Below are positions 10,091 through 36,005 of a stretch of 37,955 bases of DNA, piece by piece. The notes beneath the pieces were generated by a model. The model searched no databases. It was not told the DNA's origin and worked only from the letters and a program-made list of their open reading frames with translations. The stretch covers positions 1 through 37,955 of the forward strand of contig CANRAG010000012.1 of assembly GCA_947628515.1 (NCBI GenBank), given 5' to 3'. Position numbers and translations under genes: made by a program. Source of the DNA: an uncultured Clostridia bacterium (GTDB lineage: Bacteria; Bacillota; Clostridia; UBA1381). The first letter of the stretch is position 1. The number at the start of each line of letters is the position of its first letter.

Positions 10091-13000
10091 TTAGCCTTCA
10101 AATAATGACATTATTTCTTCGTCGGTAAGATTAGCAAGCGTTTCGGTATTGACCCGTATTATGTCCTCCGCAAGCATCCGTTTCCGTTCCTGCAATTTCA
10201 GTATCTTCTCCTCGATCGTGCCCTTTGCGGCAAGCTTTATGACCTGCACGGAATGTGTCTGCCCTATTCTGTATGCGCGGTCCGTGGCCTGGTCCATAAC
10301 GGCGGGATTCCACCATGGATCATAATGTATCACCATGTCCGCGCCTATGAGATTAAGTCCGGTTCCTCCCGCCTTTAAAGAAACCAAAAACAGCCGTCTT
10401 TCTCCGTTGTTAAAATCCTCCGCCATTTGCGACCGCTCCGCCGCGGGGGTTGAACCGTTTATATAGAAAAAGCTTATTCCTTCCCTTTCGAGCGTACCGG
10501 CGATTATGTCAAGCATGGATTTAAACTGCGAAAACACCAATATCCTATGTCCCGAATCGGTTCCGCTGCGTACCAGCTCCATAAGAAGCTCCAGCTTCCC
10601 GCTTTCCGCCCTTGTCTGCCCCTGTGCCATACCGCTATACAGGGACGGATGACAGCATATCTGCCTCAACCTCAACAGCAGCGTAAGAATAACAAAACGG
10701 CTTCCGTTTTCCGAAATAATACCCCGCGCCTGTGTCTTTGCAACATCCAAAAATTCCATATACATGGCCTTTTGCGTGCGGCTGAGCTCCGCGAGCATTG
10801 TCGTTTCGATTTTTTCCGGCAGCTCGGCAAGAACATCACGCTTCATTCTTCGCAGCACGAACGGCTTTATTATAGTCCGCAGCGAGCCTGCCACGTCAAA
10901 ATCGCCCTCGCGCATGGCGGGAATTTCAAACTTATCCCGAAACTCCCGCGCGCTTTTAAGATAACCCGGCATGATAAAATCAAAAATCGACCACAGCTCC
11001 ATGAGCGAATTTTCTATAGGTGTGCCGGTAAGCGCGAACTTGTGCTCGGCGCGAATTCTCTTTACGCTGACCGCGTTCATTGTCCGCGGATTTTTTATAT
11101 ACTGCGCCTCGTCTATAAAACAATAGGAAAACCCGATATTCCTGTAATATGCAAAGTCCCGCCTCAGGAGCGGATACGAGGTTATTACAAACTCATATTC
11201 ATCTATGGTTTTTATAAGCTCCGCGCGTGTTTCCTTCGCGCCGTTTATTATTATTGAACTCGCGTCCGGGATGAATTTGTCCAGCTCGCGCTGCCAGTTA
11301 TATATAAGCGTGCTCGGCGCCACTATAAGCGTCGGTTTTGCCGGACGTATGCTGTGTATATACGCGATAACCTGCAAGGTCTTGCCAAGTCCCATATCGT
11401 CGGCAAGAATACCGCCCATGCCCATTTCCGACATCTGCGCCAGCCACCTTATCCCGTCACGCTGATACGGGCGCAAGATTGCTTCAAGCCCCTTTTCAAT
11501 ACGCACATCCTTAGAACGCACGTTGTCAATATAGGCTTTTATGCTTTCATCCTTCTTTATATCGTCCCGCGCCGCAAGATAAAGCATATGAAACTTCGGC
11601 AGCTTCTTCCTTCCTGAATAAATGTCGATATTTGTAAGGTCAAATCGTTCAAGCATACGCAGTATATCGTTCTTCTTGTTGTCCTTCAAGCTTATATAAC
11701 TGCCGTCATGTACTCTGTAAAACGCGTGCCCCAAATTCATTGCCGCCATTATACCCTTAATCTCATCCGGCGACATATCCGTCTCGAAATTTATTTCCAA
11801 AAAATCTATGTCATTTTTATATGAGACGCCCACGGACAAATTTATATCATTACGTATATTTATCGCCTTAAATCTGTCGGTCATTATCAGCTTTGCATAC
11901 TCGGAAATTTCCTGTAAATCCTCGGTTATGAATTTATATATGGCCGCGTCCCCGTTTAGACTGAACACGGACTTTTCACGGTCAAACCCGTTAAAATACG
12001 ACAGCAGTCTGTTTTCCCGCTCCAAATCACGAATGACGATCTTATCGTTATCCTCGTAGTGCTCACGCGGAATTCTGAACTTAACCGCGCCGTATTTTGC
12101 CACCGCCACCGCCGTCACCGTTCCGGCTATAGAGTCGAGACAGACCTCAAATTCCGGTTTGTTGTTTACTATAAGCTCCTCAACCCCATTTATTACAACG
12201 CCATGCCTGTTCTTTAAGCGAGGGAGCACATTCGCGGCAAAAAGCAGAGTATTGTCGCCCTTAAATATAAGCTGTGTGCGATTTTCGCTCATAAGCGTGC
12301 GATAAATGGGCATAAAATACTCGCGCCATTCATTGGATGTTTTATATATGGTTTCGTTGTGCAAAAACCACTCCCCGTCATGAGTAATCGCAAGACCTGT
12401 TTCCGATAGCGAGAGCACGATCTCCTTGCCGAACGCTTCTATATCTATAACAATATCCGGATCCTCGTCAAGTATCCGCACACCGCTAAGCGCAATGCCG
12501 TCGTAGACAAGCTTGAAATCCGTATTGCCCAGATATGGAAGTATTCTGCGCATTGCCGACGAGCCGAATGACGTCCTGTATGTCGCTTTTTGGTATAACC
12601 CGACGTCTGACGAACGCGTTTCATACACCTCCGCCATGATAGATATTATTTTATCCTCATTCTCAGGGAAATACATAGTATTCCTGTTGTATGTTGTATT
12701 CCTGTCTATTTTAAAATCACGGTAATTAAGATAACAATCGAGAAAATTTTCAATCCCTTGTAAACGCCCGCCACATTCCGGCAATGACATTGACATTTCA
12801 AATACAGCCTCGTTATCCGGACGCGGCTTTATAAAAAGAGTAAATGCCGCCCGTATACGTCTGCGCTCGCTTTTCAGAATAAACTCCCGACACAATGACG
12901 ATGCGAGCTTATCGTTTTCATTCGTATATAGCCCGCCCTGCTCCAATTCGGCCTGACGCTGCTTCAGGACCGCCACAATATGCTTACAGGTGTTCTGCAT

Positions 13001-31330: not shown

Positions 31331-31355
31331 AAAAAGCTGCGACGCAGCTTTTTTT
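31329..31355. terminator. Bidirectional terminator between folA and the fumarase gene
   Basis: A7 (31329-31335) plus GCTGC pairs with GCAGC plus T7 (31349-31355) around a 3-nt loop. The symmetric A and T runs suit termination of both convergent genes. The folA stop (31328-31330) and fumarase stop (31354-31356) lie at its edges. Confidence 0.9.
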
Positions 31356-31905
31356 ATATCTCTCTGTATTCCGACTGACCTATTTCGTAAAGGTCGTTGC
31401 CCTCCGCGTCCATAAGCACAAACGCCGGGAAGTCCTTGACCTCCAGACGCCTTATCGCCTCCGTGCCCAGATCATCGTAGGCTACGACCTCCGACTTTTT
31501 TATGCTGCCGGCAATTAGCGCGCCCGCGCCGCCGATTGCGCCGAAATAAACAGCCTCATTCCGCTTTATCGCGTCAACAACCGCCTTGTTTCTAACTCCC
31601 TTGCCTATCATAGCGCCCAGTCCGGCGTCGAGCAGCTCCGGCGTGTACGCATCCATTCTTCCCGCCGTTGTCGGTCCGCATGAGCCGATTACCTCGCCCG
31701 GCTTTGCCGGACACGGGCCCGCGTAGTATATCACTTGGTTTTTCAAGTCTATAGGATACTCCCCGCCCGCGGCATGCAGTCTTGTCATCCTCTCGTGCGC
31801 CGCGTCGCGTGCGGTGTATATAACGCCTGAAATAAGCACGCTGTCTCCCGCTTTAAGCTCCTTTAACGCTTCCTTTGTAACAGGCGCGGTAATTCTTTTT
31901 TCCAT
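31354..31905 (-). CDS. Fumarate hydratase class I, beta subunit (TtdB/FumB-type)
   Basis: A 183-aa protein matching the C-terminal half of class I fumarases and tartrate dehydratases: the IDLKNQVIYYAGPCP region, GEVIGSCGPTTAGRMD, GLGAMIGKG, VYFGAIGGAGALIAGSI and LGTEAIRRLEVKDFPA. In two-subunit enzymes the alpha subunit holds the 4Fe-4S cluster. No alpha gene lies within this window, although the pair is normally adjacent. CGGAGG lies 9 bp before the ATG. It is 20 bp after the HAD gene and may belong to the same transcript. It could act with an alpha subunit encoded elsewhere on fumarate, tartrate or a related hydroxy acid. Confidence 0.88.
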   Translation of the reverse strand: MEKRITAPVTKEALKELKAGDSVLISGVIYTARDAAHERMTRLHAAGGEYPIDLKNQVIYYAGPCPAKPGEVIGSCGPTTAGRMDAYTPELLDAGLGAMIGKGVRNKAVVDAIKRNEAVYFGAIGGAGALIAGSIKKSEVVAYDDLGTEAIRRLEVKDFPAFVLMDAEGNDLYEIGQSEYREI

Positions 31906-31925: not shown

Positions 31926-32936
31926 TTATAGTAAGTCCGCAGCCGAGTTTAATATATAGGTTGCGTTGAGATTTTCAAAATATCCCTTCGCGGCTCTGCC
32001 GCTTACGCCCGTAAGCACCGCGCAAAAGTCAGCGCCCATAGCCTGCGCCGCGAGTATGTCCGCTCCGGCGTCGCCCACAACAAGAGTTCTCGGTATTTTC
32101 GATTTATCATAGTCCCCCGTTATGAGTCGGCTGTCGCTGTAGTCCGTTCCGTACAACGCCTTTAAAAACATATACGGATGCGGTTTTGTAAGATTTTCGC
32201 CCGTCGCGGCCTCCGCCTTTATAACATAATCATAATGGCATATTCCGTCGGGCGCGAAATATTTCATCACGTTCCAGCCGCGCAGCGGTTCCGTAATCTC
32301 CGTCCCCGGCCGGCCCGTCCCTATGGCTACTCTCTTTGTTTCCGAAAGTTCGCGAAGCAGATTTCTTAAATCCGCCATGGGTATTATCGGTCTCTCGCTG
32401 TATACCAGTCCCGGTTTGCCGGGTATTACCGGCGGCATGCCTTGTTCCGCCGCCAGAGTGTCGCCCAGAAACCAGCCCTGGAATATAATGTGCATGGTCT
32501 GCCACATCAAGCCGTTGCGCTTAACAAATTCAAAATCAAACCCCGTTCTTTCCGAAGCTCTTTCGGCGAGAACGTCATATACGTCGAGTATGTTTTCCGG
32601 CAGCTCTGCGGCATATTCTACCAGAGCCTTAAAATCTCCGATTTTATCACTGCCGTACAGTATCCACGAAAGCAGAACCGTCACATAGCCCAAATCCCAA
32701 TTGGAATTTACGCCCCTGCCCTTCAGCTCGGATATAAGCGCGTCGCCGCAAAAAACCGTTTCCCTGATTTCTTTGAGGTTTTTCATGCACTCGGCGCTGT
32801 CTGTGAAAATACCCATATTGTAATGCAGATATTCCCATACCGTCAGAGCCGCGCAGTTCCAGTAGTTCTGTTCGCTCGTTATAACCCCGTCCATATCAAA
32901 TATGACGGTATCATATTTATCTAAAAATCTTTTCAT
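31926..32936 (-). CDS. Large HAD-superfamily phosphatase, linked to HisB/HisD-like genes
   Basis: A 336-aa member of the haloacid dehalogenase superfamily with complete catalytic motifs: FDMDGV (nucleophile D14, acid D16), IGTGRPG (T207), TKPHP (K251) and GDAGAD (D289, D293). The very long insert after motif I (about 20-200) is the cap that sets substrate choice and is far larger than in the HisB-N histidinol-phosphate phosphatase. Its start overlaps the stop of the HisB-like gene by 4 bp (ATGA), so the two are translationally coupled. A phosphomonoesterase acting on the product of the HisB-like step is the natural proposal. Substrate unknown. Confidence 0.85.
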   Translation of the reverse strand: MKRFLDKYDTVIFDMDGVITSEQNYWNCAALTVWEYLHYNMGIFTDSAECMKNLKEIRETVFCGDALISELKGRGVNSNWDLGYVTVLLSWILYGSDKIGDFKALVEYAAELPENILDVYDVLAERASERTGFDFEFVKRNGLMWQTMHIIFQGWFLGDTLAAEQGMPPVIPGKPGLVYSERPIIPMADLRNLLRELSETKRVAIGTGRPGTEITEPLRGWNVMKYFAPDGICHYDYVIKAEAATGENLTKPHPYMFLKALYGTDYSDSRLITGDYDKSKIPRTLVVGDAGADILAAQAMGADFCAVLTGVSGRAAKGYFENLNATYILNSAADLL

Positions 32937-33553
32937 TCCGTCTCGACTACCCAGTTGATTTTTCCGGCAACGCCCGACGTCCTGCCTTTTCGGCTTTCAT
33001 CCGTCGTTACTGCCGCTTTTAACGCCGAGCCGACCGCGCGGTAGATCGCCTCCCAGATGTGATGCCCGTTATGTCCCTTATACAAGTCAATGTGCATCGT
33101 GCACATCGCGCCCTGTACAAATCCGTCAAGGAAGGTTTCGAGATCCTCGCTGAGCATACCCTCTGTTTCCGTCGGCACGTCAATGCCGTGATAGTCCCAA
33201 TCTATATACGCGCGCGACTCAAAGCTCACCGCGCACTGCGCCTTTGCCTCGTCGATTATGCCTATAGCGTCGCCATATCCGTAAGCGCCGTCGGCGGTAT
33301 CTATGTACTCCTTAACCGCCTTGCCCATGGCGATACCCAAATCCTCCGCAATAACATGCGTAAGCGTAAAATCCGCAAGCTTTATCCGCGTTTTTATGTT
33401 GAACCCGCCGCGGTACGCGATATGTTCAATCATGTGGTTGAGAAACGGAATGGGCGTCTGTATGTCCTTTCGGTAGTCCGACCCCAGGCCGGCAAAATCA
33501 ATTACCACACCCATTTCCGATTCTGTTGTCGTTCGTATTGCTTTAACCTTCAT
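32933..33553 (-). CDS. Divergent imidazoleglycerol-phosphate-dehydratase-like protein (HisB paralogue)
   Basis: A 206-aa protein from the ATG at 33553; GAGAG lies 7 bp upstream, whereas the longer frame begins with TTG too near it. The IGPD pattern is clear: R..T.E at the start, FLNHMIEHIAYRGGF, HVIAEDLGIAMG, IIDEA, TMHIDL and GHNGHHIWEA. The second HHxxE metal motif (H164, H165, E168) is intact, but the first is HVxxE (H66, V67, E70), the usual FxDHML is FLNHM (N39), and the His of HGGF is Arg (R48). The usual C-terminal STKG-type ending is replaced by RTSGVAGKINW. True IGPD uses both HHxxE motifs to hold two Mn ions. So it may be an altered dehydratase, not histidine-pathway HisB. Two bp follow the HisD-like gene. 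Confidence 0.8.
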   Translation of the reverse strand: MKVKAIRTTTESEMGVVIDFAGLGSDYRKDIQTPIPFLNHMIEHIAYRGGFNIKTRIKLADFTLTHVIAEDLGIAMGKAVKEYIDTADGAYGYGDAIGIIDEAKAQCAVSFESRAYIDWDYHGIDVPTETEGMLSEDLETFLDGFVQGAMCTMHIDLYKGHNGHHIWEAIYRAVGSALKAAVTTDESRKGRTSGVAGKINWVVETE

Positions 33554-33555
33554 AA

Positions 33556-34854
33556 TCAATCTCTCTCTTTTACCGCGAGCGCGTGGGTTTCAAAACCCTC
33601 AACGGTCGCAAAATTATACGCGTGCTCTCTTACCTTTCTAAAGCCCTCTTTTGACGCGTAGCCCACCGAGGAACGCTTCAAAAAGTCCATGACGGATACA
33701 GATGAATACGTCTTTGCAAAGCCGCCCGTGGGAAGAATTGCGTTGGGGCCCAATACGAAGTTACAAAGCGTAACCGGCGTGTAATCGCCCAATAGTATTT
33801 CGCCCGCGTTCTTTATAAGCGGCAGCACGTCAAACGGTTTCTCCGTCATAACCTCCATATGCTCCGGCGCGTAATCGTTCACAAACCGGATTGACTCCTC
33901 AAGCGAATTTGTAAGAATAATACCGCCATAGGTCGTAAAGTTTGTTTCAATCCAGCTCCTTCTTCTGTCCGAAAGCTTTTCGAGCTGCGCGTTCATTATC
34001 GGGATAACCTTATTGACAAGCTCCCGCGAATGTGTGACGAGCAGCGCCGCGCTGTCCGGGCCGTGCTCCGCTTCGATCATCCAGTCGCGCGCCGCCTTTT
34101 CCGGATCCGCATGCTCGTCGGCAAGAACTATGATCTCCGACGGACCCGCCGGAAGCCCCGCGTCAATATTATTCGCCAGAACCCGCTTTGCGGCCGTAGC
34201 ATAGCTGTTGCCGGGGCCTAAAATCTTGTGGCATTTGGGTATCGTCTCCGTGCCGTACGCAACCGCCGCAACCGCCTGAATACCGCCGACCTTATATATC
34301 TCGGTTATGCCTATAATCTTTGCCGCGCACAAAATAGCGTCGTCCACCTCGCCTTTCTCGTTCGGCGGCGTTACGACAACTATTCTCGGAACCTTCGCGA
34401 CGACGGCCGGAATACCCAGCATACACAACACCGACGGGAACGAGCCTTTGCCGTGCGGAACATACAAACATACGTCAACAATCGGAGTCGTCTTTTCCCC
34501 GACCATCAAACCGTCGTCAACCATTGTGAACCACATTTCCTCCGGAAGCTGTTTTTCATGGAAGTCATAAATATTTTTATACGCATACTCGATCGACTTG
34601 CGTGTTTTTTCGTCAAGTCTCGCGTAGCCCGCGTCGATTTCCGCCTGAGTAACCTTCATAGTATCGGCCGTAAGCTGCACACGGTCAAACTTTGCCGTAT
34701 ACTCCAATACGGCCTCGTCGCCCCTGACGCGGATGTCGTCCGAGACTTCCTTGGCAATCTTCATCTGCTCCGTAATGTCCTGCTCGGCGCGGCGCATTAT
34801 CACGTCGTACTGCTCCTTGGTCATTTTGTCAAGCTCGTAAATATTCGGTGTCAT
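33556..34854 (-). CDS. Divergent histidinol-dehydrogenase-like enzyme (HisD paralogue)
   Basis: A 432-aa protein of normal HisD length with Rossmann-type motifs (YVPHGKGSFPS, KVGGIQAVAAVAYGT, ILGPGNSYATAAKR, DAGLPAGPSEI), AEHGPDS (H264) and APEHM (E331, H332). By remembered numbering of the E. coli enzyme, the zinc ligands Q259, H262, D360 and H419 correspond here to E261, H264, N365 and H424, and the His of the GTNHVLPT motif is Ala (A372). Two of four zinc ligands are thus changed. NAD-linked oxidation of an alcohol, possibly other than histidinol, is likely; a few HisD relatives (for example sulfopropanediol dehydrogenase HpsN) act on other alcohols. It starts 17 bp after dnaJ with a GAGGGG site and no terminator between. 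Confidence 0.82.
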   Translation of the reverse strand: MTPNIYELDKMTKEQYDVIMRRAEQDITEQMKIAKEVSDDIRVRGDEAVLEYTAKFDRVQLTADTMKVTQAEIDAGYARLDEKTRKSIEYAYKNIYDFHEKQLPEEMWFTMVDDGLMVGEKTTPIVDVCLYVPHGKGSFPSVLCMLGIPAVVAKVPRIVVVTPPNEKGEVDDAILCAAKIIGITEIYKVGGIQAVAAVAYGTETIPKCHKILGPGNSYATAAKRVLANNIDAGLPAGPSEIIVLADEHADPEKAARDWMIEAEHGPDSAALLVTHSRELVNKVIPIMNAQLEKLSDRRRSWIETNFTTYGGIILTNSLEESIRFVNDYAPEHMEVMTEKPFDVLPLIKNAGEILLGDYTPVTLCNFVLGPNAILPTGGFAKTYSSVSVMDFLKRSSVGYASKEGFRKVREHAYNFATVEGFETHALAVKERD

Positions 34855-34871
34855 TACTGTATAATCCCCTC

Positions 34872-36005
34872 TTACTTAAAAATTTTTTTCATTTTCTCTG
34901 TAAAGCTCGTTTTCTTTACGTAATTCTCGTCCTCGTCAAACTCGCGCAGCATCTCTTTCTGCCTCGCGCTCAAATTCTTGGGCACCTCAACGGTTACGGT
35001 CACGTACTCGTCGCCGTTGCCGCGCCCGTTAAGTATCGGCACGCCCTTACCCCGAAGCTTAAACCGCGTATTGGTCTGGGTTCCTTCGGGTATGTCATAT
35101 TCAACAACCCCGTGGATGGTTGGAACCTTCAGCGTTGAGCCGAGCGCCGCCTGTACAAATGTTATCGGGAACGTCACGTTTATATCGTAGCCGTCGCGGC
35201 GGAATATCTCGTGCGGCTTAACGCGTATATAAAGCTGCAAATCCCCGCTCGGCCCTCCGTTTGCGCCGGCGTTGCCCGCTCCGGAAATTCGCATTACATG
35301 CTCGTTATCAATTCCCGCCGGAATGTCAACCTCCACGGTCTTATTCTGCCTTACGCTGCCCGTGCCGCGGCACACGGGACAGGCCTCCTTTATAACCTTG
35401 CCCTTACCGTGACATGTCGGACACTCGGAAATAACATTCGAGAAGCCGAACATGGTCTGACGTCTCTGCTGTATCTGACCTGTGCCGTTACACTGCGAGC
35501 AGGTAACGGGCTGTGTTCCCTTTTTCGCGCCGCTTCCGCCACATTCGGAACAGGTATCGTTCTTTGTAATATTAATCTTCTTCTTGCATCCGAACGCCGC
35601 CTCTTCAAATGAAAGGTTGATATACTGGCAAAAATCGCTGCCGCGTCTGGGCCCGTTGCGTCTTTGCCGTCCTCCGCCAAAGCCGCCGAAGCCGCCGCCG
35701 AATATGTCGCTGAATATATCGCCTATATCCCCCATATCGAAGCCGCCGAAGCCGCCGCCGCCAAAGCCGGCATTGCCGTCAACGCCCGCATGACCGAACT
35801 GGTCGTATCTCTGACGCTTTTCATCATCGGAAAGCACCTGGTATGCCTCGTTTATTTCCTTAAATTTTGCTTCCGCCTCTTTATCGCCCGGATGAAGATC
35901 CGGATGATACTTCTTGCTCATTTTGCGGAAAGCCTTTTTTATTTCGTCGCCCGAAGCGCCCTTACCGACGCCTAAGACCTCGTAATAATCACGTTTATCA
36001 GCCAT
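34872..36005 (-). CDS. dnaJ: Chaperone protein DnaJ
   Basis: A 377-aa co-chaperone stimulating DnaK ATPase. The J domain has HPD in [13 protein letters not shown] (about 33-40). A Gly/Phe-rich region (about 75-115) follows, then four CXXCXGXG zinc repeats ([32 protein letters not shown] at about 145-205), and the C-terminal peptide-binding domains. The Gly/Phe DNA is repetitive. It follows dnaK and precedes the HisD-like gene. Confidence 0.98.

Follow-up and report, generated by a model that had tools for sequence, protein, structure and literature searches.

A divergent HisD-HisB-HAD cassette replaces canonical hisB and hisD in a group of Clostridia and may end histidine biosynthesis by an altered route

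To our knowledge, histidine biosynthesis is regarded as following essentially the same route wherever it occurs. Two enzymes of this route are the imidazoleglycerol-phosphate (IGP) dehydratase HisB (EC 4.2.1.19, PF00475) and the histidinol dehydrogenase HisD (EC 1.1.1.23, TIGR00069). The di-Mn ligand set of HisB comprises H47, H74, H169 and E173 together with H73, E77, H145 and H170, and its phosphate contacts are Q51, H55, R99, R121, K177, S199 and K201 (PMC4509728), while in plant histidinol dehydrogenase the equivalent of E414 holds the imidazole and the equivalents of Q259 and D360 are Zn ligands (PMC5585171). A relative of HisD, the DHPS 3-dehydrogenase HpsN, oxidises a diol in which a hydroxyl replaces the amino group (PMC11382572). 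Several protein families that are unrelated to each other are known to provide the histidinol-phosphate phosphatase (HolPase) (PMC5516325), and in GapMind this step is left as a gap more often than any other (PMC7311316).

We analysed a stretch of 37,955 nt (hereafter the window) from an uncultured Clostridia bacterium (UBA1381; GCA_947628515.1, contig CANRAG010000012.1), in which positions 31926-34854 hold, all on the minus strand, genes for divergent relatives of HisD and HisB (HisD' and HisB') and for a HAD hydrolase. These genes and their neighbors are as follows:

34872..36005, minus strand: dnaJ, 17 bp upstream of HisD'
33556..34854, minus strand: HisD', 432 aa, histidinol-dehydrogenase family (Histidinol_dh PF00815, 493.6 bits, E 6e-148)
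32933..33559, minus strand: HisB', IGP-dehydratase family (IGPD PF00475, 119.7 bits, E 1e-34)
31926..32936, minus strand: HAD hydrolase with a large helical cap, 336 aa, predicted phosphatase of the cassette (PF13242/PF00702)
31354..31905, minus strand: Fe-S hydro-lyase beta subunit, FumA C-terminus/TtdB family (PRK06842, 293 bits vs a cut-off of 238)

The tight packing described in the initial annotation was confirmed: HisB' can start at an in-frame TTG at 33559 (208 aa) or at an ATG at 33553 (206 aa), the ATG leaving a gap of 2 bp to HisD', and its gene overlaps that of HAD by 4 bp. It was also correct that the window contains no further his genes, with hisZ, hisG, hisA and hisIE being found on other contigs of the same genome. 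The three-gene order, whose recurrence in other genomes had been proposed as a check, is indeed widespread, with HisD' adjoining HisB' in 68 of 71 loci and HAD coming next in 60 of the 67 loci that have room for it (it is missing from the remaining 7). In three loci (L037, L051 and L052) HisB'-HAD-FumB occurs without an adjoining HisD' and is flanked by a ligA-like and a radC-like gene, both assigned by eye, and in two others a gene that by eye is acetyltransferase-like replaces HAD after HisB' (L063, 6645-7178; L075, 6597-7169).

The initial annotation omitted a conserved fourth gene of the cluster, that of the Fe-S hydro-lyase beta subunit, which starts 20 bp beyond HAD and is present in 57 of 71 loci, including that of Petroclostridium; no alpha subunit was recognised beside it in the two neighborhoods scanned. 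The dnaK-dnaJ-hisD order was restricted to loci of the same genus and of near relatives, making dnaJ a local neighbor that lies outside the system in distant relatives. Within the window's genus, the short distance of 17 bp between dnaJ and HisD' suggests that the cassette may be co-transcribed with the dnaK-dnaJ heat-shock genes.

HisB' resembles HisB in its fold and length, in being the sole family member per genome and in keeping the catalytic E21 and six of eight metal ligands (H47, H73, E77, H169, H170 and E173); the best 29 PDB fold matches of its AF2 model (pLDDT 93) were all IGPD. It differs from HisB in sequence (~27% identity), reaching at most 118 bits against any NCBIfam HisB equivalog and thus missing every cut-off (189 to 443), and it forms a clade outside canonical HisB with a separation support of 100/100. 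Residue tables over 88 HisB' sequences, using the metal-ligand and phosphate-contact assignments of PMC4509728, demonstrated that E21, H47, H73, E77, D108, E109, R121, H169, H170 and E173 are kept in all 88, whereas the Mn1 ligand H74 is V, L or I in every one of them (V69 in the window's protein). Position 145 varies among T, V and A within the clade (T142 in the window's protein) and is H in Arabidopsis HisB and already E in 10/10 canonical kin, leaving H74 as the only clean metal-ligand loss. Six of the seven phosphate contacts are altered and R121 alone is retained: none of the 88 sequences keeps Q51, H55, K177, S199 or K201, and all of them have G or S in place of R99, with the window's protein carrying Q51H, H55R, R99G, K177R, S199G and K201A. 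Q51 calls for caution as well, being unconserved in canonical kin.

HisD' passes the TIGR00069 equivalog-domain cut-off (461.4 bits vs 243.8) and keeps the NAD residues and, in 82/82 sequences, the E326/H327 catalytic pair, the Zn ligands H262 and H419, and the imidazole contact E414 (H264, H424, E331, H332 and E419 in the window). Unlike HisD, it carries Q259E, D360N with the neighboring G359C, and H367A in 82/82 sequences (E261, N365 and A372 in the window for the first, second and last), such that the Zn-ligand positions Q259, H262, D360 and H419 read E, H, N, H throughout, and in the tree it forms a clade apart from canonical HisD. The changed metal sites that the initial annotation had seen in both proteins are therefore fixed across relatives (HisB' H74 in 88/88, HisD' Q259E and D360N in 82/82), and the family trees it had called for place both proteins outside the canonical clades. 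HpsN offers a precedent for a four-electron oxidation by a HisD fold of a diol bearing a hydroxyl instead of an amino group, but it keeps Gln248 and Asp352 (equivalent to Q259 and D360) and a G-R-Y-A/S-H motif where HisD' has GKGSF; as this motif is absent, membership of HisD' in the HpsN family was rejected. Since HpsN keeps the Q and D ligands despite its amino-free substrate, loss of the amino group alone fails to explain Q259E and D360N. Both HisB' and HisD' thus retain their imidazole-binding portion and have a rebuilt portion near the remainder of the substrate.

The HAD protein keeps its catalytic motif residues (D14/D16, T207, K251 and D289/D293, in an alignment of 33 orthologues). The best fold match of its AF2 model (pLDDT 95.5) is 1qyi (TM 0.85), which is no known HolPase, in agreement with the initial annotation's view that this enzyme is unlike the known ones, and its similarity to TIGR01656 is weak and local (22.9 bits, below the cut-off of 84.15). 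Like the HAD-type (HisB-N), PHP-type and HisN-type HolPases, it is a probable phosphatase within a histidine cassette, and canonical kin carry a PHP protein in that place; unlike them, it belongs to the structural group of 1qyi (S. aureus ZR25), with a large helical cap. A PHP protein encoded upstream of the genome's own hisZ (L077, 12633-13283, 216 aa) was considered as a HolPase and rejected, having only 39.9 bits to hisJ_fam against a cut-off of 90.2.

We compared 61 genomes (the window's own and 60 relatives), 52 of which have HisB. Each HisB was either canonical (~202-219 bits, 10 genomes) or divergent (105-137 bits, 42 genomes) and no genome held both types, although one of the 61 carried two divergent copies. 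HisD splits likewise, into canonical (582-604 bits for full-length copies) and divergent (483-510 bits), and pairs by type with HisB. The exception is the HisD of one genome (G022; L151 / L257), which scores 507.8 bits yet has canonical residues: it represents a third HisD type, which shares ~35% identity with HisD' and sits on a very long branch, and its genome encodes HisC as well as canonical HisB. In the window's own genome the cassette HisB' and HisD' are the sole PF00475 and PF00815 matches, and so the second, canonical pair for which the initial annotation had proposed a search does not exist there. In 15/15 additional genomes, which include the complete Petroclostridium sp. X23 chromosome and two isolates (Ructibacterium gallinarum and Lachnospiraceae MD329), a single HisB was present and was of the divergent type; 13 of the 15 had strong HisA and HisF matches. 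The host group is one of Clostridia devoid of canonical hisB, a hisC-containing operon, hisD and the PHP phosphatase.

The remaining his genes of the window's genome (2.9 Mb, 99.6% complete, 224 contigs) were located by family searches, which placed hisZ-hisG-hisA together on one contig (C2) and hisIE on another (C82) and found no hisF in the assembly; given that most genomes of the same genus have strong HisA and HisF matches, hisF was probably lost to an assembly gap. Two canonical kin (G017 and G023) have a single operon, hisZ-G-D-C-B-H-A-F-IE-PHP. The main operon of Petroclostridium, hisZ-G-H-A-F-IE, lacks precisely B, C, D and the phosphatase, while HisD'-HisB'-HAD lies elsewhere in the genome, so that the cassette supplies three of the four functions missing from the operon. 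In one locus (L046) the cassette lies a few kb from hisZ, hisG and hisA, with hisZ and hisG fused in a 551-aa frame (10675-12330) and hisA next to it.

The HisR operator has the consensus cacTTTAnnnnnnTAAAgtg (PMC9413887), and HisR-like sites scoring at least 19, a score reached in 0.4% of random 400-bp stretches, preceded 9 of 16 hisZ genes, in canonical and cassette genomes alike. These include the window's own genome, in which the HisR-like operator CGCTTTAAACAGCTAAAACG lies 152 bp upstream of hisZ (L077). Sites of at least this score also preceded 3 of 36 stand-alone cassettes, a sample that does not include the window's dnaJ-linked cassette, vs ~0.14 expected, a result that is no more than suggestive. 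No T-box or His-leader RNAs were found near the cassette in 26 sources.

The fourth missing function is that of the aminotransferase HisC. The TIGR01141 cut-off was passed in 9/9 genomes with canonical HisB vs 11/48 cassette genomes (Fisher p 2e-5, with genomes that are phylogenetically non-independent and canonical operons that physically carry hisC), and an over-cut-off match was also missing in 4 of 14 control genomes. The best match of the window's genome reached 150.9 bits, short of the cut-off of 276.6. Two intermediate HisC-like matches of 200-240 bits were examined and rejected as substitutes, both being CobD amid cobalamin genes, and a phmmer search (E 1e-5) of the listed his operon neighborhoods of cassette genomes found nothing similar to E. 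coli HisC. Where cassette genomes do encode HisC, it sits outside the his operons, adjoining DAHP synthase in Petroclostridium and, in most members of one family (f2), having a purE-like gene on one side and a miaB-like gene on the other (assigned by eye); none of the 11 cassette-genome hisC genes has a HisR-like site upstream.

The gene content, the mutual exclusivity, the conserved order, the clade structure, the residue changes and the absence of HisC were all observed directly. They indicate that the cassette is very probably part of late histidine biosynthesis and not a separate pathway. With rebuilt active sites and without the gene for the usual aminotransferase, the final steps probably follow another chemical route, and the joint change of tail-binding residues, taken with the loss of HisC, is best explained by amination coming last. 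We give an even chance to an altered, HisC-independent ending that leads to imidazolepyruvate in either order of reactions. The fuller scheme, to which we assign slightly less than an even chance, is that HAD, HisD' and HisB' take IGP to imidazolepyruvate in some order and a general aminotransferase then yields histidine, histidinol phosphate and histidinol never being formed. HisZG, HisIE, HisA and HisFH would produce IGP by the usual route. In the most probable order, HAD would then dephosphorylate IGP, HisD' with NAD+ would turn the terminal CH2OH of imidazoleglycerol into a carboxylate, and HisB' would dehydrate the resulting imidazoleglycerate, giving imidazolepyruvate for a general aminotransferase to convert to histidine, such that amination would move to the final step and HisC become dispensable. 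Only slightly less likely is a variant of the same logic that starts with HisB', continues with HAD and has imidazole acetol as the substrate of HisD'. All substrates, the reaction order and prototrophy are inferred.

The strongest competing explanation, which we consider a serious but minority possibility, is that the chemistry is canonical and the enzymes merely divergent: HisB' would dehydrate IGP, an unrecognised aminotransferase would stand in for HisC, HAD would be the HolPase and HisD' would oxidise histidinol, the residue changes reflecting drift or a different metal. That HisB' and HisD' take the place of the canonical pair one for one speaks for this explanation, as do the TIGR00069 score of HisD' and the retention of most catalytic residues in the two enzymes, and a HolPase from yet another family would be unremarkable given the variety and the annotation gaps noted above. 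Furthermore, the eleven cassette genomes that retain a HisC-family protein could perform canonical amination with the same HisB' and HisD', and a missing TIGR01141 match would still allow imidazole acetol phosphate to be aminated by a different enzyme. Drift, however, poorly explains why tail-binding residues changed in both enzymes together and are invariant over 82-88 sequences, and HisC is missing from most cassette genomes, phmmer having detected nothing HisC-like around those of their his operons that were examined.

The initial annotation favored a pathway unrelated to histidine that acts on a vicinal-diol phosphate, an improbable reading in light of the distribution of these genes. The active-site changes, the position of both proteins outside the canonical clades and the conserved Fe-S hydro-lyase beta subunit after the cassette would fit such a pathway, as would two genomes (G044 and G053) that have the cassette without strong HisA or HisF matches. 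These two genomes nevertheless have hisG, and as hisA and hisF are adjacent in that family, one lost contig accounts for the gap. (In G053, divergent HisB and HisD are present in two copies each, adjacent on two contigs, and HisA and HisF matches are absent from the assembly.) A non-histidine pathway is left unsupported by the sole hisB and hisD in genomes that hold the remaining his genes, by the one-for-one replacement of the canonical pair and by upstream his genes with HisR-like operators; the imidazole-contact residues are kept as well, and a few loci have HisR-like sites ahead of HisD'. The associated proposal of a substrate other than IGP fares better, in that a non-textbook intermediate is a live possibility given the non-canonical clades, the changed metal and tail residues and the mostly missing HisC, though one still inside histidine synthesis.

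That these organisms are instead histidine auxotrophs, with a catalytically dead HisB' and with the upstream genes and cassette being relics or serving another imidazole product, would accommodate the lost metal ligand, the missing HisC and the still putative prototrophy, but is very improbable given the 71-97% identity of HisD' in all loci but one, the 47 invariant columns among 25 HisB' sequences, the intact HAD motif residues and the full hisZGHAFIE of Petroclostridium.

Returning to a HisC-independent ending with amination last, we found no earlier description of it or of the cassette in the literature searched, most subscription journals being outside reach. If true, many gut and rumen Clostridia would possess a second ending to histidine biosynthesis, a basic metabolic finding. 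Automated predictions, which score these organisms as histidine auxotrophs or take their HisB and HisD annotations at face value, would need correcting too, and two metalloenzymes would be seen to have been re-tuned jointly for altered substrates.
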